Part shown: positions 24,342 to 39,664 of the stretch, piece after piece
Layout of the letters: every line of letters begins with the position of its first letter
Numbering within the stretch: position 1 is the stretch's first letter
Source of the DNA: Bacteroidales bacterium
GTDB lineage: Bacteria; Bacteroidota; Bacteroidia; Bacteroidales; VadinHA17
Assembly (NCBI GenBank): GCA_025454755.1
Contig: JALONV010000005.1
Span: 1 to 61,082, forward strand
Direction: 5' to 3'
DNA: 61,082 nucleotides
Position numbers and translations under genes: made by a program
Notes under the pieces: model-generated
The model's database searches: none
Told to the model about the DNA's origin: nothing
The model's input: the letters and a program-made list of their open reading frames with translations, nothing else

Positions 24342-24572
24342 ATATTTTAAAACATTGACCTGCACAAAACAGAATCAAAAACCTGATAGCTCAAAAAGTG
24401 TAAGAAATCATTCATTTATGCAAACAGCTCAAAATATTTGACTATTGCACAAATATTATTGATGAAGAATTGTTGAAGAATTATCTAATTGTAAAAAAGA
24501 GTCTTAATTTTATATTGAATTTTTACAAGTCATATATACACATAGATTCGATAAGAGGTGGAACCAAAAACC

Positions 24573-25013
24573 ATGTTTATTGAGCCAACCAGCAAAACCC
24601 CTCAGATTGATCTGAATCATTTGACGGGGGAGCTGATTTTTTCAGGCAAATCGATACCGGAGAACGCTGCCGATCTTTACGACAAAGTCCTGAAATGGGT
24701 TACACAATACATTACTACTCCGCGACAGATAACCAATTTACGTCTGAACCTTGAGTATTTTAACACTGCCTCATCAATCTGGCTGGCCAAGATTGTCAAA
24801 ACTCTCTGTTCCATCAAGGAAGCAGAGAATACGCTAATGATCCACCTTTATTTCAATATTGAAGAATTCGACAGTATGGAGGTTGAGGATCTGAAGGACA
24901 ACCTCAGCCCTGTTATCGACATGATCGGTACTCCTGTTGTCAGCATAGGGATCAAAATCTACGCTACTGGTGACAATGGAGAGATCCTTAAAGAATCGAT
25001 GGTTCTGGTATAA
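24573..25013 (+). CDS. SiaC-family (DUF1987) regulatory phosphoprotein
   Basis: A 146-aa protein matching the DUF1987/SiaC family: MFIEPTSKTPQIDLNHLTGELIFSGKSIPENA, then YDKVLKWVTQYI, LRLNLEYFNTASSIWLAKIVKTL and a C-terminal acidic half. In Pseudomonas, SiaC is switched by phosphorylation (kinase SiaB, phosphatase SiaA) and binds a diguanylate cyclase. No SiaA, SiaB or GGDEF gene is nearby, so its partner here is unknown. I prefer ATG 24573, 12 nt after AGAGGTGG, over the in-frame GTG at 24558, which overlaps that purine tract. Confidence 0.85.
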   Translation: MFIEPTSKTPQIDLNHLTGELIFSGKSIPENAADLYDKVLKWVTQYITTPRQITNLRLNLEYFNTASSIWLAKIVKTLCSIKEAENTLMIHLYFNIEEFDSMEVEDLKDNLSPVIDMIGTPVVSIGIKIYATGDNGEILKESMVLV

Positions 25014-25090: not shown

Positions 25091-26599
25091 ATGCGACAAG
25101 GATTAGTAATATTGCTTTCAATCTTCACTACCATGGAACTTTACTCACAAAGCAAACAGATTGACAGACAACCTGTTGCAGCTGGCCGATTCTATACTGC
25201 CGATAAGGAAACCCTGAAAAAAGAGCTGACTGTGTTATTTGCTGATTGCAAAAAACCGGACGAAGAGCTAAATGTAAGGGCTATTATTGCTCCCCATGCC
25301 GGATATGTATTCTCCGGTAAAATAGCAGCGTCAGCCTTCTCCACCACCTCAAGGATTGCCGGTTATAAAAATATTTTCCTGATCGGATCGAGCCATGTTA
25401 TGGCATTCGACGGGGCATCTGTCTACAATACGGGAGATTTTATAACCCCCCTGGGAAGAGCTGTCGTAAATATAGAGATAGGCAATAATCTGAAAAAAGA
25501 GAATGCCATATTCAAATTCCCAACTACCGCGCACCTGCAGGATCATTGTCTGGAAGTTCAGATTCCGTTCATACAATATTATTATACTGTCACACCAAAA
25601 ATTGTCCCCATTATTATCGGAACTACCAGTAACACCACAATTAAGAAGGTTGCAGAAGCGCTAAAACCTTACTTCACCTCTGAAAACCTCTTCGTCATAA
25701 GCAGCGATTTCTCTCACTATCCCTCCTACCAGGATGGCAATAAAGCCGACAATGCAACAGCAACCGCACTGGTTTCAGGTGATCCTGCCGTTTTCCTCGC
25801 GACATTAAAGAAGAACTCGGAAGCACAAATCGAAGGGTTGGCAACCAGTATGTGCGGTTGGACATCCGGCCTTACTCTTCTGCACCTTGCAGAAGGAAAC
25901 AAAAACCTTGAGTTTAAGCGCATAGCATACTGCAATTCCGGAGATTCACAATACGGGAATAAAGATGAAGTAGTAGGATATCATGCCATTGCACTGGTTG
26001 AAAAAAAACAGATGCAGGAAAGTAAGCAGAAAGACTCTGAAGACTTCAGCTTTTCAAAAGAAGAGAATGAGACATTGTTCTATATAGCGCGAAACACCAT
26101 AAAATCGAAACTTTTTGAGGACAAGGAGTTCGCAATTGATGAGAAAAAGATCACTGAAGCCCTGAGAAGGCCGCTTGGCGCTTTCGTCACCCTTAAAATA
26201 AATGGCGTCCTCCGGGGTTGTATAGGCCGGTTTGTTTCGACTGAACCCCTTTATGAGGTTGTCAGAGCCTCAGCGCTGTCATCAGCATTCGAGGACCATC
26301 GCTTCCCGGCTCTGACAAAAGATGAATATAATAACGTTGATATAGAAATAACTGTCCTTGGCCCAATGAAAAAAATCGACGATATCAGCGAGATCAAGCT
26401 TGGCAAACATGGCATCTATATCAAAAAGGACTTCATGGCAGGAACAATGCTTCCACAGGTTCCGATTGAATACGGATGGACACTTGAAGAGTTCCTGGGA
26501 TACACTTCCAGGGACAAAGCCGGAATTGGATGGGATGGCTGGAAAACAGCTGAAATCAATATATACGAGGGTTTAGTGCTCGAAGAAAATAAAAAGTGA
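25091..26599 (+). CDS. MEMO1-AMMECR1 fusion (AmmeMemoRadiSam proteins B and A)
   Basis: A 502-aa fusion of two ancient, poorly understood domains. Residues about 25-305 are MEMO1-like, a fold related to extradiol dioxygenases: APHAGYVFSG (His69), GSSHVM (His102), SSDFSHYP (His209) and SMCGW (Cys255); His69, His102 and Cys255 appear to match the human MEMO1 metal site. Residues about 322-500 are AMMECR1-like with the signature LRGCIGR (374-380) and SSAFEDHRFPAL. The N-terminus MRQGLVILLSIFTTMELYSQ looks like a cleavable signal peptide, implying export. The next gene starts inside its stop codon (GTGA). A radical SAM protein of the same system follows one gene later. Function unproven. Confidence 0.9.
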   Translation: MRQGLVILLSIFTTMELYSQSKQIDRQPVAAGRFYTADKETLKKELTVLFADCKKPDEELNVRAIIAPHAGYVFSGKIAASAFSTTSRIAGYKNIFLIGSSHVMAFDGASVYNTGDFITPLGRAVVNIEIGNNLKKENAIFKFPTTAHLQDHCLEVQIPFIQYYYTVTPKIVPIIIGTTSNTTIKKVAEALKPYFTSENLFVISSDFSHYPSYQDGNKADNATATALVSGDPAVFLATLKKNSEAQIEGLATSMCGWTSGLTLLHLAEGNKNLEFKRIAYCNSGDSQYGNKDEVVGYHAIALVEKKQMQESKQKDSEDFSFSKEENETLFYIARNTIKSKLFEDKEFAIDEKKITEALRRPLGAFVTLKINGVLRGCIGRFVSTEPLYEVVRASALSSAFEDHRFPALTKDEYNNVDIEITVLGPMKKIDDISEIKLGKHGIYIKKDFMAGTMLPQVPIEYGWTLEEFLGYTSRDKAGIGWDGWKTAEINIYEGLVLEENKK

Positions 26600-29019
26600 C
26601 CATGTACCATGTTGTCGGAACAATTATAACGGTTTCCCTCCTTTATCTTTTAAGTTTCCTCTTTTACAGGACCGGCTTATTATCACAAACGATTCACAGG
26701 AAGTTCTGGAATAGTGTACTGGCCGCAACATTTATTTTTACGGCTATTGCAGGGATATTCATGGCTCTTCAGATACATTTCAAATGGAATGTACCATTTA
26801 TTAAATCACTTCTCAAATGGCACGTCGAAATCGGGGTTGCCTTCGGGATGACCGGCTTATTCCATTTCCTGTGGCATCTTCCGTATTTTGGAAGGATATT
26901 TAAAGGATCAGAAGACGGTCAGCCTTGTGCTGAATATAAACAGACAGATTCCTTTTCCATATCCGCCAATCTATTCATGATTGGTTTTACAAGCACTTCG
27001 GTTCAAATCCTGCTTATCAGGGAACTGATGAATATTACAGGAGGATACGAACTGATATCCGGCGTTTTCCTGGGTTCGTGGCTGATAGCCTCTTCCGCAG
27101 GGGCGGCAATAGCCAACAGATCAGCGCTTAACGACATCAGGAAAATAAACCTGCTTTTTGCCATTTGTGCATTTATTTCTGTCAGCCTGCTGCCCCTGCT
27201 CACCAGGCTTTTTCTCGGAACAGGGGAAGTACCTTCTTTCCTTGAAGGATTGATCATAACTCTGATACTTCTCGTCCCCTTCTGCCTGATAAGCGGATTT
27301 GCCTTTGTCAAGCTCATTAACACTGCAAGAGAAATTAATGCATTTATACCCGGCAAATCATTCTCAATTGAGACAACAGGAGGCATCATTGCCGGAATAA
27401 TATTATCGGTACTGACATCAGGTATATTCAATACCTACGAATTGCTTCTGATAATACTTCTATTGTTTCTGGCATATACGCTGCTTACCTGGTACATCCG
27501 GGAGAAGATGGCTAAACTGATAGTAAAAGCATTTTTTACAATTCTTATCTCGGCAATAGTCCTGTCTGAACCGGACCTGCTTTTCAGAGAGCTTCTGCTG
27601 CCGGCCATCAACATTACAGAAACAAAAGATACTCCTTACGGGAACTTAACCAAAGGGGAATATGCAGGTGAAGAGAGTGTCTATTATAATCAGCGGCTTC
27701 TTTCCTACAATGATGATGCGATGGAGAGAGAAGAGGATATTCATTATGCAATGCTTCAGAGGAATAATCCGGAGAACATCCTTCTTATCTCAGGATCTTT
27801 AAAACCTCATCTTCAGGAAATACTCAAATATGATGTAAAGAAAGTCGTTTATGTCGAGAGAGATCCGGAACTTGTAAGATCCTTCATGACTGACGAATAC
27901 AAGGGAGGTCAGAAGGTTGTCATTGAGAACAGGGATGCTTTCAGGTATCTGAGAAGCACTAATGAAACATTCGATGCCATTATCATGCTCCTCCCCCCAC
28001 CTTCAACCCTATCAGTCAACAGATTCTATACGACTGACTTCTTTAAGGATGCAAAGAATAAGCTTACTGCCGGAGGTGTTTTCCTGTGTTCACCTGGTCC
28101 TAATGACAATTATTTCAACCAGGAATCGGTAAATCTTTATTCATCAATTTTTAACAGCCTGGCAGCGAACTTTAAATATGTCGAGCCCGTGGCAGGCAAC
28201 AAGATTTACCTGATTGCCTCTGATGAAGAGTTATCGGTTTCATTCTGCAGACTTGCCGGGGGAAAGAAAATTGAAAATATCTATGTAAGCCCAGCCTTCA
28301 TCACAGATGAATTTACTGAAAAAAAATCTGCCGAGATAAAAGCTCTGATGGATACCGGAATAAGGCTGAACAGGAATCAATTTCCTATCGCATGTTTTCA
28401 TTCTCAGTCATATAACATGAGCAAAAACCTTGACGAAAGGTTGCCTGCGATAATACTTATGATTCTGGCTTTCGTTATTCCAATCTTTGCAACCAGGAGG
28501 AGGAACATGCTTATGTATTTCAGCGCTTCGGCCCTGGCCGGCTTTGAAATAATAATTCTTCTCACTCTCCAGCTAACTGCAGGAAACATGTATCAGCTGA
28601 CCGGTCTTGTAATTGCAGTTATGATGGCAGGATTGGCGGCAGGAGCCGGCACAAGGATGAACTTCACCGGAACTATTGATCTCAGAATCAAATCCATGAT
28701 CCTGGTGATCTACTATGTTGTCCTTGCATTATGCTTCAATCTTATCCTGGGATTAAAGGGAGTATTTGTTCCTGTGCTTTTAATCCTCCTTTCAGTGGTT
28801 ATACCAGCGTGGATGACAGGCCATATATTCCGTGAGCTGACAACAGGCAGTACAGAAACATCGGCTCCCGGAGCAACATACAGCGCAGACCTTGCGGGAT
28901 CGGCTCTAGGATTCATACTCGTATCCGGGATCGCAGTTCCGGCTTTTGGAATCAGGAACTCGATAATTTTACTCTCGATACTTATATTTGCAGGCATACT
29001 TTTTGGAACTAAGAAATAG
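26596..29019 (+). CDS. Polytopic membrane protein with spermidine-synthase-like domain
   Basis: An 807-aa protein. It has N-terminal hydrophobic helices (three before residue 115, then about eight between 125 and 340), a soluble Rossmann-type domain at about 345-590 resembling spermidine synthase/SAM methyltransferases (TPYGNLTKGEY, NILLISGSLKPHLQEILKY, VVYVERDPELV, FDAIIMLLPPPSTLSVNRFYTTDFFKDAKNKL), and about seven C-terminal helices. In SpeE the catalytic residue is the Asp of a DxxD loop; here the loop reads LLPPPSTLS and lacks it. LISGSL departs from the usual GGGDG. It may therefore not make polyamines. GTG at 26596 overlaps the upstream stop; ATG at 26602 is an alternative. Encoded within an AmmeMemoRadiSam cluster. 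Confidence 0.85.
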   Translation: MTMYHVVGTIITVSLLYLLSFLFYRTGLLSQTIHRKFWNSVLAATFIFTAIAGIFMALQIHFKWNVPFIKSLLKWHVEIGVAFGMTGLFHFLWHLPYFGRIFKGSEDGQPCAEYKQTDSFSISANLFMIGFTSTSVQILLIRELMNITGGYELISGVFLGSWLIASSAGAAIANRSALNDIRKINLLFAICAFISVSLLPLLTRLFLGTGEVPSFLEGLIITLILLVPFCLISGFAFVKLINTAREINAFIPGKSFSIETTGGIIAGIILSVLTSGIFNTYELLLIILLLFLAYTLLTWYIREKMAKLIVKAFFTILISAIVLSEPDLLFRELLLPAINITETKDTPYGNLTKGEYAGEESVYYNQRLLSYNDDAMEREEDIHYAMLQRNNPENILLISGSLKPHLQEILKYDVKKVVYVERDPELVRSFMTDEYKGGQKVVIENRDAFRYLRSTNETFDAIIMLLPPPSTLSVNRFYTTDFFKDAKNKLTAGGVFLCSPGPNDNYFNQESVNLYSSIFNSLAANFKYVEPVAGNKIYLIASDEELSVSFCRLAGGKKIENIYVSPAFITDEFTEKKSAEIKALMDTGIRLNRNQFPIACFHSQSYNMSKNLDERLPAIILMILAFVIPIFATRRRNMLMYFSASALAGFEIIILLTLQLTAGNMYQLTGLVIAVMMAGLAAGAGTRMNFTGTIDLRIKSMILVIYYVVLALCFNLILGLKGVFVPVLLILLSVVIPAWMTGHIFRELTTGSTETSAPGATYSADLAGSALGFILVSGIAVPAFGIRNSIILLSILIFAGILFGTKK

Positions 29020-29052: not shown

Positions 29053-30189
29053 TTGAATAAAACTGCTCAGAATATTTCAAAGCGTGATTTCCTGAAGAGA
29101 TGCTTTGCAGTTTCTTCAGGCGTCATTTGTTTTCCGCGGATGGCTGTCGCTGACAGCTTTATGGACTCAGATCAGGATATTTACCGTAAGCTGGCAATGT
29201 ACCAGGAGGAGACACCCAGAGGAATAATGTGCAGGATATGTCCCAACGAATGTGTTCTGAAGGAGGGTGAGGTAAGTAAATGCAATAACAGAAGAGTGCA
29301 CAATTCCAAATTGTACACAATGGCATTCGGCAATCCATGCTCTGTCAACATTGATCCGATAGAAAAGAAACCATTGTATCATTTTGTCCCCGGATCCAGG
29401 GCATTTTCAATTGCCACTGCCGGCTGTAACCTTGTCTGTCTCAATTGCCAGAACTGGACCATCTCACAAACCAGTCCCGATAAAACCAGGAATTACGATC
29501 TGCCGCCTGAAAGGGTTGTGAGTGAGGCAATAGGAAGTCAATGCAAATCTATTGCCTATACTTATTCCGAACCTATGACTTTTTACGAATATACTTTCGA
29601 ATCTGCCGGACTGGCAAAGAAAGCAGGTGTCAGGAACATAGTAAAATCAAATGGTTATATAAATCCTGAGCCTCTTAAGAAACTATGTTCCGTTTTAGAT
29701 GCGGCAAACATCGATCTGAAGTCGTTCAATGAAAGCACTTATCTTAAACTGACAGGTGGCAAATTACAGCCTGTTCTGGATTCACTTAAGATTTATAAGG
29801 ATATGGGGGTGTGGCTTGAGATAACCAATCTTGTAGTTCCGGGATGGACGGATAATATTGATGAAATCGGGAAAATGTGCAAATGGCTTAGCGAAAACGG
29901 ATTCAGGGATACGCCGCTTCACTTCAGCAGGTTTTATCCCACCCATAAACTCCAGCAGCTTCCTCCTACTCCGGTTGAGGTTCTTAAAAATGCCGTTAAG
30001 GTCGCTGTAAGTGAAGGAATACGATATGTATATACAGGAAATGTGCCGGGAAATGAGATCTCTGATACTAAATGTGCCACATGCGGGACAACTCTTGTAA
30101 AAAGGCTTGGTTATACTATCACTGCGAACACAATTTTAAACGGGAAATGCAGTAAATGCGGGAATGCTATCCCGGGAGTATGGAGCTGA
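29053..30189 (+). CDS. AmmeMemoRadiSam-system radical SAM enzyme
   Basis: A 378-aa radical SAM protein. The [4Fe-4S] motif CNLVCLNC (Cys125, 129, 132) follows AFSIATAG. An N-terminal cysteine cluster (Cys60, 63, 67, 77; CRICPNECVLKEG) is typical of this subfamily, and a C-terminal rubredoxin-like knuckle pair (Cys341/344, 366/369) may bind zinc or iron. The N-terminus SKRDFLKRCFAVSSGVICFP followed by MAVADS resembles a Tat-type signal with KR in place of RR, so export is possible but would be odd for a SAM-dependent enzyme. The start is TTG at 29053; there is no nearer in-frame ATG before the cysteine cluster except Met30. The reaction is unknown. Confidence 0.9.
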   Translation: MNKTAQNISKRDFLKRCFAVSSGVICFPRMAVADSFMDSDQDIYRKLAMYQEETPRGIMCRICPNECVLKEGEVSKCNNRRVHNSKLYTMAFGNPCSVNIDPIEKKPLYHFVPGSRAFSIATAGCNLVCLNCQNWTISQTSPDKTRNYDLPPERVVSEAIGSQCKSIAYTYSEPMTFYEYTFESAGLAKKAGVRNIVKSNGYINPEPLKKLCSVLDAANIDLKSFNESTYLKLTGGKLQPVLDSLKIYKDMGVWLEITNLVVPGWTDNIDEIGKMCKWLSENGFRDTPLHFSRFYPTHKLQQLPPTPVEVLKNAVKVAVSEGIRYVYTGNVPGNEISDTKCATCGTTLVKRLGYTITANTILNGKCSKCGNAIPGVWS

Positions 30190-37195: not shown

Positions 37196-39664
37196 TTATT
37201 TTATTAAATAATACTTCAGAGTTTGAATACCGTTTTGGTGATAGAGAACGATTAAATAAAGTCCTGAAGGATATCCGGAAATATCGATATTTGCCTCAAT
37301 TGAGCCATTTGTATAGTTTGATACTATCAATGTGCCGGTAGTATTGAAGATGCTGTATCTCAGTGGTTTATTGATGATGTTATCAAGCTTCCTGATCATG
37401 AATCTGCCATTTCCGGGATTCGGATAGATCGATGCAGGTGTTATTGTTATTTCATTAACACTATTAATCCGCGGACCAATATAGAGATCTTCGATGCCCC
37501 ATCCCCATCCATTGGCATAAGGATCGGAGAAGAGCCTGAACCGAACGATCATTGTATCTCCGGCAGATATGTGCGAAGAAACCTTCGGGAAAATTGTATG
37601 TTTAACAAGCATTGATTCATCTCCGGTGAAGGTCGAATTATTGCCGCTTATTGCACTGTTATAATCTGCTTCCCATTGATCCAGATATCTGCTGTCGTAA
37701 CCATCTGCCAGTGCAAACCAGTTCTTTCCAAAATCACGGGAGGCTTCCACAATTACATAATCATAAAACCAGGTTGATCCGAAAGTCGATCCCTCTTCTC
37801 CCGGTTCAACCAGCACCACTTCATAATAACTTATGATCATACCGCTTTCGTCGAACCTCACAGGAGTTCTAAGCATCGCAGTATATCCGATGCTGTCGCC
37901 AGTTTCTTCCGGACTTTCATAGGGGTGCCTGGTATGAAGCCCGAAGTCATTGAATCCGGCGGGCATTGTCACTTCAAAACCATTGGTCAGGAAGTCACCC
38001 GTTGCAAATTCAAAGTCGGTTGCATAGCTTGTCTCTACATTGTTTATCCTTTCGAAATTCACAGTGTAGAATCCGGTTGATGGAAAAATCTTCTGATTTG
38101 GTGAAGCAGCTTTGTCAATTGCTATGAACCTGTATGACAGGGAATCACCACCTGTAACCGGCATAGTTTTAGTGCTCAGAACTGACCGGTAACCATCTTC
38201 ACCTGCATGGGCTAGTCCTAAAGAATTCAAGGGACCTTCATTAAGCTTGTATTCAAGATAAACTGTGTCTATACCGATGTTATCTGTTGCTTCAACGTCG
38301 AAACTGACCGAATCTACGACTGAAAGGTAATACTCAGCAGGAGTATGGGTCAATACCGGCTTAACTGTATCAGTACCTATATAGACTGAATTCGGATATG
38401 CCGTATCGGATGGTGAAAGGTAAGATCTCAGGAAATAGTCCTCAGCAGAAATATAATAAGAGAGCCTGGTTTCATAGGATGGGATGGATATGGCAGCTGT
38501 AAAAAGATTGTTTGATCCCGGAGATGTCATATAAGAAGTCTGGCTGGTTTTGAAGTCATCAAAAGACCATGTAAGGGCGACTTTGCCATGATTATATGAA
38601 GTATCCGATTTTATTTCAGCATTTATGGCTACAGAGGAAATAGGTTCCTCTGTGTCTTTTGAGGGTTCATGTATTATCCGGGTATTTATCCATCCGATAT
38701 CACCAAGCATTGCCCTGGTAAGCTTGCCCGGATTATGAATAGCCTCTCCCCTTCCGATAAATGGTGTCATTAGTGCATCGGTATTGACATCGGTTGGTTT
38801 ATATGTTTCTTCATCGAGGTGGGCAATGCTTGAACCTGCTTCAAATGTCACTGGAGCGTATAGCCTTGACCTTCCGCCTGAAAGATATGCGTTCACCACC
38901 GGGCCCTTAAAATACAATATACCGCTTGTAAGCTGTGTCTTCAGGGCAGATGACGGGTTGGGAAACAGAATAGAATTGGTAAGTTTCTGCCCTGAATTAT
39001 TTTCAACAAAAACATCATAGATCAGGGGCAATGAAGAGACACCATAAGAACCCGTTGCAGACTCAACATAAAAACTGTCGAAAAAGCCGAGACCGTGTAT
39101 CATTTCATGAAGCGCTACTGTGACAAGGTCGTATTTGAGTGTAGGAGTTTTTCCATCAGTTCCCAGATACCAGTTCACCGAGCTGTTGATATGAAGTTCC
39201 ATATCGCCTTCCGCATCCTCATTGAGCTTCTGTCCTGCAATCTTTTCTGCAAGAGCAGCAGGATAGACAGCCAGTGGTTTCCAGGCGTCAATTCCCCGGC
39301 CAGGAGCATAACTTGTTGCTGATGAATTTGCCAGTACACCTGATGTTGAAATGTTTTCCCAGGTCGCCAGAATTGTAATATGAACATCATCAGGCAGCAG
39401 GGCTTCCAGGATTGAAGCCGCACGTTCAACTGAGGTTATGGCTGCTGCAGTAAAATTGGTATAATAGATATCTACTGAAGCTCCGCCTTTCTTTCCGATT
39501 TTCTCAAAGTATTCTTTTGGCGGAGGAATATAGACCCTGTTCACCTTATCACTTGCATAAGTGGTTCCGGTGAACAGGGGTTGTTTGATCATTCTCTGGC
39601 CATTTAGCCCGAGAAATGATGTTATTAAATAAAAAGCTGTTAATAAGATGATCTGTCTTCTCAT
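37196..39664 (-). CDS. Secreted metzincin-like metalloprotease with T9SS sorting domain
   Basis: An 822-aa secreted protein. A signal peptide (about 1-22) is followed by a protease domain with HEMIHGLGFFD (186-196), matching the metzincin zinc motif HExxHxxGxx(H/D) with Asp as third ligand. Beta-sandwich regions follow (about 390-560 and 580-730). The C-terminal SIYPNPGNGRFMI block and ISGYPSGLYLIVL are typical of the type IX secretion type A sorting domain, so the protein should be moved across the outer membrane by the Por system. The start ATG overlaps the ferritin stop (ATGA), suggesting coupled translation. Substrate unknown. Confidence 0.87.
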   Translation of the reverse strand: MRRQIILLTAFYLITSFLGLNGQRMIKQPLFTGTTYASDKVNRVYIPPPKEYFEKIGKKGGASVDIYYTNFTAAAITSVERAASILEALLPDDVHITILATWENISTSGVLANSSATSYAPGRGIDAWKPLAVYPAALAEKIAGQKLNEDAEGDMELHINSSVNWYLGTDGKTPTLKYDLVTVALHEMIHGLGFFDSFYVESATGSYGVSSLPLIYDVFVENNSGQKLTNSILFPNPSSALKTQLTSGILYFKGPVVNAYLSGGRSRLYAPVTFEAGSSIAHLDEETYKPTDVNTDALMTPFIGRGEAIHNPGKLTRAMLGDIGWINTRIIHEPSKDTEEPISSVAINAEIKSDTSYNHGKVALTWSFDDFKTSQTSYMTSPGSNNLFTAAISIPSYETRLSYYISAEDYFLRSYLSPSDTAYPNSVYIGTDTVKPVLTHTPAEYYLSVVDSVSFDVEATDNIGIDTVYLEYKLNEGPLNSLGLAHAGEDGYRSVLSTKTMPVTGGDSLSYRFIAIDKAASPNQKIFPSTGFYTVNFERINNVETSYATDFEFATGDFLTNGFEVTMPAGFNDFGLHTRHPYESPEETGDSIGYTAMLRTPVRFDESGMIISYYEVVLVEPGEEGSTFGSTWFYDYVIVEASRDFGKNWFALADGYDSRYLDQWEADYNSAISGNNSTFTGDESMLVKHTIFPKVSSHISAGDTMIVRFRLFSDPYANGWGWGIEDLYIGPRINSVNEITITPASIYPNPGNGRFMIRKLDNIINKPLRYSIFNTTGTLIVSNYTNGSIEANIDISGYPSGLYLIVLYHQNGIQTLKYYLIK

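Follow-up and report, generated by a model that had tools for sequence, protein, structure and literature searches.

Proteins of the Memo and AMMECR1 families occur from archaea and bacteria to humans, with a chemistry that is still unsettled. The locus described here raises the question of whether one branch of the system to which they belong works outside the cytoplasm. If so, its possible substrates would be limited to molecules of the cell envelope, which offers a way to seek them. The stretch of DNA that was analyzed, hereafter the window, comprises 61,082 nucleotides from a Bacteroidales bacterium (VadinHA17; GCA_025454755.1, contig JALONV010000005.1, positions 1 to 61,082, forward strand). 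An earlier note on this DNA had described a reading frame at 25091-26599 (+; ATG start, 502 aa) in which a Memo domain and an AMMECR1 domain are joined behind a hydrophobic N-terminus, and it had proposed that the fused pair is exported. Beyond that note, we describe the gene of a membrane protein, here called SPM, a leader-bearing radical-SAM gene, and a second TIGR04337 gene in the same genome. The fusion gene (25091-26599), the SPM gene (26596-29019) and the radical-SAM gene (29053-30189) form a three-gene run in which the first two genes overlap by 4 bases and the radical-SAM gene comes next after SPM. The features of the run are as follows:

25091..25147, + strand: leader of the fusion protein, residues 1-19; 10-residue hydrophobicity 2.55; leaders are present in the nearest relatives
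25172..25987, + strand: Memo domain, residues 28-299; H69, H102, C255, D206 and H209; PF01875 (E 9.7e-53) and TIGR04336
26084..26569, + strand: AMMECR1 domain, residues 332-493; LRGCIGR (C377); PF01871 (E 3e-46) and TIGR04335
26596..29019, + strand: SPM, 807 aa; spermidine-synthase-like domain at about residues 339-600; PF01564 (E 2.6e-15)
29053..29160, + strand: radical-SAM leader, residues 1-36, starting at TTG; contains SKRDFLKR followed up by a hydrophobic segment, a pattern also present in relatives
29218..30183, + strand: AmmeMemoRadiSam radical-SAM domain, residues 56-377; C125-x3-C129-x2-C132; TIGR04337, 340.7 bits against a cut-off of 220

The family models and the gene grouping both place the locus in the AmmeMemoRadiSam system. 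The window scores 152.2 bits against a cut-off of 99 for TIGR04335, 223.1 against 26 for TIGR04336 and 340.7 against 220 for TIGR04337, the fusion and the radical-SAM gene share one run, and the catalytic and metal residues are kept. The locus differs from the usual form of the system in that Memo and AMMECR1 make up one chain, the fusion and the radical-SAM enzyme carry leaders, and SPM lies between them. The usual system is cytosolic, a location that is not part of the family models, whereas the leaders in the window predict export. The genome holds a single Memo and a single AMMECR1, both in the leader-bearing fusion, and one TatC gene. The second TIGR04337 gene (L001, G000:C14:7210-8193; 359.1 bits) lies on another contig and has no Memo or AMMECR1 of its own. 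The 17-residue stretch ahead of its domain was flagged by our first leader rule and not by the final one, and its closest relative, L203, has no leader stretch.

The fusion protein has the folds and the metal site of its two families. Both domains lie in one frame, as the earlier note had proposed, and both exceed the curated cut-offs (PF01875 and TIGR04336; PF01871 and TIGR04335). H69, H102, C255 and the LRGCIGR motif (C377) occupy the positions that the note had named, and in an alignment to MEMO1 chains the first three fall on H49, H81 and C244, the iron ligands of human MEMO1, so the MEMO1-type site of His, His and Cys is present in the window. Among 35 homologues, H69 and H102 never vary, and conservation of C255 is at least 90%. 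In the structure prediction that the note had suggested as a check, a model built from 35 homologues (pLDDT 92.4, pTM 0.62) matches human MEMO1 (7kq8, 7l5c and 3bcz; TMt 0.82-0.84) and AMMECR1 (1vaj; TMt 0.83). With the archaeal AMMECR1 proteins (1vaj, 1zq7, 1wsc) the window domain shares the fold and a profile match (E 1.9e-55); these are separate proteins, whereas the window has a chain that looks exported, with AMMECR1 as its C-terminal half. An excerpt of PMC11081632 describes human MEMO1 as a cytosolic protein that binds iron via H49, H81 and C244. The fold and the three metal ligands are common to MEMO1 and the window protein, and the leader and the fused AMMECR1 domain set the latter apart. 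An extradiol dioxygenase of the LigB fold was also considered and appears not to apply, because the Glu expected as third iron ligand is absent and C255 stands in its place, as in MEMO1.

The leader of the fusion is likely a Sec-type signal peptide, and our guess is that it is cleaved after S19. Within residues 1-25, the best 10-residue Kyte-Doolittle mean is 2.55. A value above 1.6 is also reached by three proteins, which we take to be FolD, SecA and RpsF, out of 16 in the window that were assumed to be cytosolic. Because hydrophobicity is thus unspecific, our rule for Memo leaders paired a hydrophobic core (threshold 1.6) with at least 15 residues ahead of the domain start, and the call for the window rests on its pre-domain residues and on its relatives. 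The four nearest (L047, L048, L246 and L248) all carry leaders, and the window fusion therefore belongs with the exported group. On these three points, the hydrophobic stretch, the pre-domain residues and the nearest relatives, the signal-peptide-like N-terminus that the earlier note had seen is borne out. Among 75 fusion leaders in the order, 43 contain C-x-x-Q, as lipoproteins of Bacteroidota might, one contains an E. coli-type lipobox, and 16, including that of the window, have no Cys past the first residues. The window fusion itself was rejected as a lipoprotein, since its leader contains no Cys and hence no lipobox cysteine.

The order-wide survey shows how far such leaders extend. Memo is present in 152 of 295 genomes of the order. 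The survey set consists of 140 stretches from the Memo matches listed plus the window, that is 141 Memo genes, of which 104 are fused to AMMECR1 and 37 are standalone; nine further listed matches, eight of standalone and one of fused length, lie outside it. Among the matches listed, 75 of the 104 fused genes carry a leader, 28 are leaderless and one is truncated, and none of the 37 standalone genes has a leader. One of the 75 (L041) was scored as leader-bearing on a weak hydrophobic stretch. The collection of homologues that the earlier note had called for thus finds leaders on most fused genes. The note had also held that homologues which start near residue 24 without a leader would refute export. 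Such homologues do exist, in 28 of the 104 fused genes. None of the 28 has SPM in its fetched region, and wherever their genomes showed a radical-SAM gene, it was leaderless (20/20 genomes, one of them by a hand-set label). The window and its leader-bearing nearest relatives fall outside this group, and the export that the note had proposed is supported as a prediction.

The leaders of the Memo genes and those of the radical-SAM genes go together. In the 74 genomes with a leader-bearing Memo, the radical-SAM gene is leader-bearing in 61, only leaderless in nine, and was seen in none of the remaining four. In the 53 genomes with only leaderless Memo, the corresponding numbers are 0, 35 and 18. 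Where any radical-SAM gene was seen, leader-bearing ones therefore accompany leader-bearing Memo in 61 of 70 genomes and leaderless Memo in 0 of 35, counts that include two hand-set labels; the rule alone gives 60/70 and 1/35. Twelve genomes carry leader-bearing and leaderless Memo genes side by side. The radical-SAM search was genome-wide for the 65 genomes without an adjacent gene, in 61 of which TIGR04337 was found, and covered the fetched stretch elsewhere.

SPM follows the same division. Among the Memo matches listed, the fetched stretch includes SPM for 53 of the 75 fused genes with a leader, for 0 of the 28 without one and for 0 of the 37 standalone genes; these standalone loci thus have neither fusion, Memo leader nor SPM. 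The 22 leader-bearing loci at which SPM was unseen include some that end at contig ends. These counts cover the fetched regions around Memo genes, and SPM-length matches are also present in G038 and G040, two genomes whose Memo genes lie outside those examined. We give the association as counts and set aside the Fisher p value because it ignores kinship. Where the genes occur together, SPM and the radical-SAM gene either follow the fusion gene in its own direction or are transcribed away from it. As read from the sequences, the radical-SAM partner and SPM speak more strongly for the predicted export than the fusion's own leader does.

The radical-SAM enzyme retains the residues expected of its family. 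The CxxxCxxC motif (C125, C129, C132) and the SAM-site residues K223, E173 and D221 are present in the window, and conservation of the three cluster cysteines and of eight others is at least 98% both in 113 leader-bearing and in 100 leaderless rows. All 113 leader-bearing rows have the cluster cysteines and the SAM-site Lys. In the alignment with the pyruvate formate-lyase activating enzyme, K223 is kept in 113/113 leader-bearing and 100/100 leaderless rows, and every row of both kinds has an acidic residue (Glu or Asp) at 173; D221 is replaced by Asn in 21 of the 113 leader-bearing rows and is Asp in all 100 leaderless ones. By sequence, the activating enzyme (3c8f), which is cytosolic, is the closest solved relative (E 1.8e-16), and its D-L-K and acidic SAM-site position align with those of the window enzyme. 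The window enzyme differs from it by the leader and by extra cysteines on either side of the domain, a CxxCxxxC...C arrangement in front and two CxxC pairs after it.

The leaders of the radical-SAM enzymes take several forms: K-R or R-R twin-arginine-type signals, Sec-type signals and transmembrane anchors, the last in L042 and L101 of the order survey in place of a Tat-type leader. All of these would be expected to lead to one and the same result. That of the window is of the twin-arginine type, with K-R in place of R-R (KRDFLK). Among near kin, the leaders differ strongly in their residues and show little codon-position-3 excess. The rule for calling radical-SAM leaders was revised twice after the sequences had been seen, and three labels were set by hand: L220, which has a KREFIR leader of low hydrophobicity, was set to Tat, and L155 and L260, whose upstream stretch is absent in the sister L067, were set to leaderless. 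L308 and L313 have R-R leaders by eye and are nonetheless scored leaderless. In L128 and L135, one leader-bearing Memo-AMMECR1 gene is followed by two radical-SAM genes of the family in succession, one with a leader and one without.

Leader-bearing radical-SAM enzymes are also found beyond the order. When named genomes were scanned with the radical-SAM alignment, 80 loci were retained out of at least 590 stretches, and the counts are for this reason not frequencies: 39 loci are Tat-type, 13 are Sec-type or anchored, and 28 were scored leaderless. The leader-bearing relatives fall in 18 NCBI-named phyla, one of them archaeal, most being metagenome-assembled genomes with possible misbinning. SPM lies within 7 kb of the radical-SAM gene in 33 of the 52 leader-bearing and three of the 28 leaderless named-genome loci. 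A tree built from 213 radical-SAM genes requires 10 changes of leader state and places the window in a set of 45 rows, every one of which has a Tat-type leader (95% SH-aLRT). Joint changes of the Memo and radical-SAM leaders are few, with two pairs on well-supported branches and four on all branches, a count made without the additional, leaderless radical-SAM gene of each of L128 and L135.

In the model of SPM (pLDDT 85.4), three N-terminal helices are followed by seven transmembrane helices, the spermidine-synthase domain and seven further transmembrane helices. Averaged over 29 homologues, positive charges mark the inside, and the soluble domain falls on the opposite side. A cruder protein-by-protein charge count places this domain outside in 24 of the 29; three of the five proteins counted as inside are near kin of the window. 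Twelve canonical membrane spermidine synthases give the same charge picture, so an outward orientation is not special to the system of SPM. In the canonical proteins of L326-L337 (NF002956), seven transmembrane helices carry positive loops on one side, which would likewise put the synthase domain outside. Thus, SPM resembles the membrane spermidine synthases (NF002956/PRK03612) in having seven transmembrane helices ahead of a synthase domain and an outward charge pattern, and differs from them by its second seven-helix half, its low score and a missing Asp. SPM does not fit the polyamine aminopropyltransferases (NF002956): it scores 71.3 of 472 bits and has Leu at a position where 12 of 12 controls have Asp. 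This Asp, which we take to be the catalytic Asp of the aminopropyltransferases, is kept in six of 50 SPM proteins, and its loss makes SPM unlikely, by sequence, to be a normal aminopropyltransferase. The Asp of the GGGDG motif is lost as well, but the 12 controls were selected by GGGDG, and its conservation in them holds by construction. Other residues are kept, namely E379 (50/50), D447 (46/50) and E421 (43/50, with Asp in four). An N-terminal domain is present in 15 of 22 Bacteroidales SPM proteins and contains a pair of invariant histidines spaced by 14 residues; 14 of the 15 have a third. In the window (26596-26910), these are H76 and H90 (each 15/15 relatives) and H34 (14/15), in helices that resemble a b-type heme domain. 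DUF4405 matched one of the 22 N-termini (E 0.0085), and a heme role is our guess.

We consider the locus probably to be an extracytoplasmic variant of the AmmeMemoRadiSam system, consisting of a leader-bearing fusion, an outward-facing SPM and a leader-bearing radical-SAM enzyme that act on an envelope substrate; a compartment variant is the best reading of its class. Counting against this reading are the K-R motif of the window, the Asn at D221 in 21 leader-bearing rows, the nine genomes that pair a leader-bearing Memo with leaderless radical-SAM genes only, the 22 leader-bearing loci at which SPM was unseen and the small codon-position-3 excess in the leaders, the last being indecisive. According to this model, the fusion would leave the cytoplasm via Sec. 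For the radical-SAM enzyme, Tat would be the route in the majority of lineages, presumably with the protein already folded and holding its iron-sulfur cluster, and the other lineages would use a Sec-type signal or anchor. Because the catalytic residues are kept, the set most likely still performs radical-SAM and iron chemistry. The substrate would be a lipid, isoprenoid or protein of the envelope and not a cytosolic nucleic acid. If the radical-SAM enzyme works outside, SAM and electrons need a source, and SPM is a concrete candidate supplier because, within the stretches fetched for the order, it adjoins the leader-bearing form only. SPM may bind a SAM-type nucleoside and would bind or move it for the radical-SAM enzyme. 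It is possible, although rather doubtful, that the whole radical-SAM pathway lies outside the cytoplasm, such that an outward SPM, catalytically altered and often with a heme-like N-terminus, supplies SAM or removes products and provides electrons, and the Tat- or Sec-exported enzyme modifies an envelope molecule together with Memo-AMMECR1.

To our knowledge, radical-SAM enzymes are regarded as cytoplasmic, and we know of no SAM or low-potential electrons outside the cytoplasm. The latter point favors an explanation in which the proteins are exported and radical-SAM catalysis has been lost, with Memo binding Fe or Cu and the iron-sulfur protein serving as a metal or redox sensor, or an electron carrier, in the envelope. 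The replacement of D221 by Asn in leader-bearing rows only points the same way, as does the human protein, which binds Fe and Cu and for which an excerpt of PMC11081632 reports that no dioxygenase activity was found. We nevertheless think this loss of catalysis unlikely, since K223 and an acidic residue 173 are as universal in leader-bearing as in leaderless rows and a pure cluster protein needs neither.

The remaining doubts concern the leaders themselves. The fusion might be exported while the radical-SAM enzyme of the window's lineage stays in, or faces, the cytoplasm because its K-R leader fails as a Tat signal. K-R is found in 50 of the 59 Tat-type rows of the order survey, whereas the eight other Tat-type proteins with a readable motif in the window's genome all have R-R (16 loci, found with a search model that favors R-R). 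Of the curated Tat models, neither PF10518 nor TIGR01409 picks up the enzyme of the window, and PF10518 matched one of 23 relatives. On the other hand, K-R-x-F-(L/I) and the hydrophobic stretch persist throughout the order in leaders that otherwise vary, R-R (24 of 28 Tat-type rows outside Bacteroidota) or Sec-type leaders are seen in relatives from other phyla, and radical-SAM leaders accompany leader-bearing Memo. A failing K-R signal therefore seems to us quite improbable. We give very little credence to the view that the leaders reflect misassigned starts or upstream frames and that the set is an ordinary cytosolic one. The fused homologues that start near residue 24, the TTG start of the window's radical-SAM gene and the chance flags of the rule alone (L155 and L260, and L001 in its first version) speak for it; yet the leader calls divide by architecture and by the presence of SPM as a neighbor, they recur in 18 named phyla, and the leaders listed mostly start at ATG. 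The extracytoplasmic variant is thus the reading that we retain.

In the literature searched (titles and the starts of abstracts, a scope outside which the main comparative treatment lies), no exported form of Memo, AMMECR1 or the radical-SAM enzyme is described. Comparative work on the PCAD-Memo superfamily was reportedly presented by Burroughs et al. in 2019, a study cited in PMC7159879. In an excerpt of PMC10924467, the radical-SAM protein figures merely as a neighboring gene.

A fourth partner gene was sought among clusters of reading frames (76 loci with and 61 without a leader-bearing radical-SAM gene), and the search returned mainly shadow frames and family synteny. Directly upstream of the fusion is a SiaC-like gene (window 24558-25013); a similar gene apparently occurs in five leader-bearing and zero leaderless loci (the L249 cluster), and it is probably family synteny. 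Elsewhere in the window (37196-39664), a large secreted-looking protein ends in a C-terminal type IX sorting domain (PF18962). In L075 (2175-4397, minus strand), a frame of 741 codons places a long extra part, by eye resembling an SGNH-type esterase, ahead of the Memo-AMMECR1 fusion.
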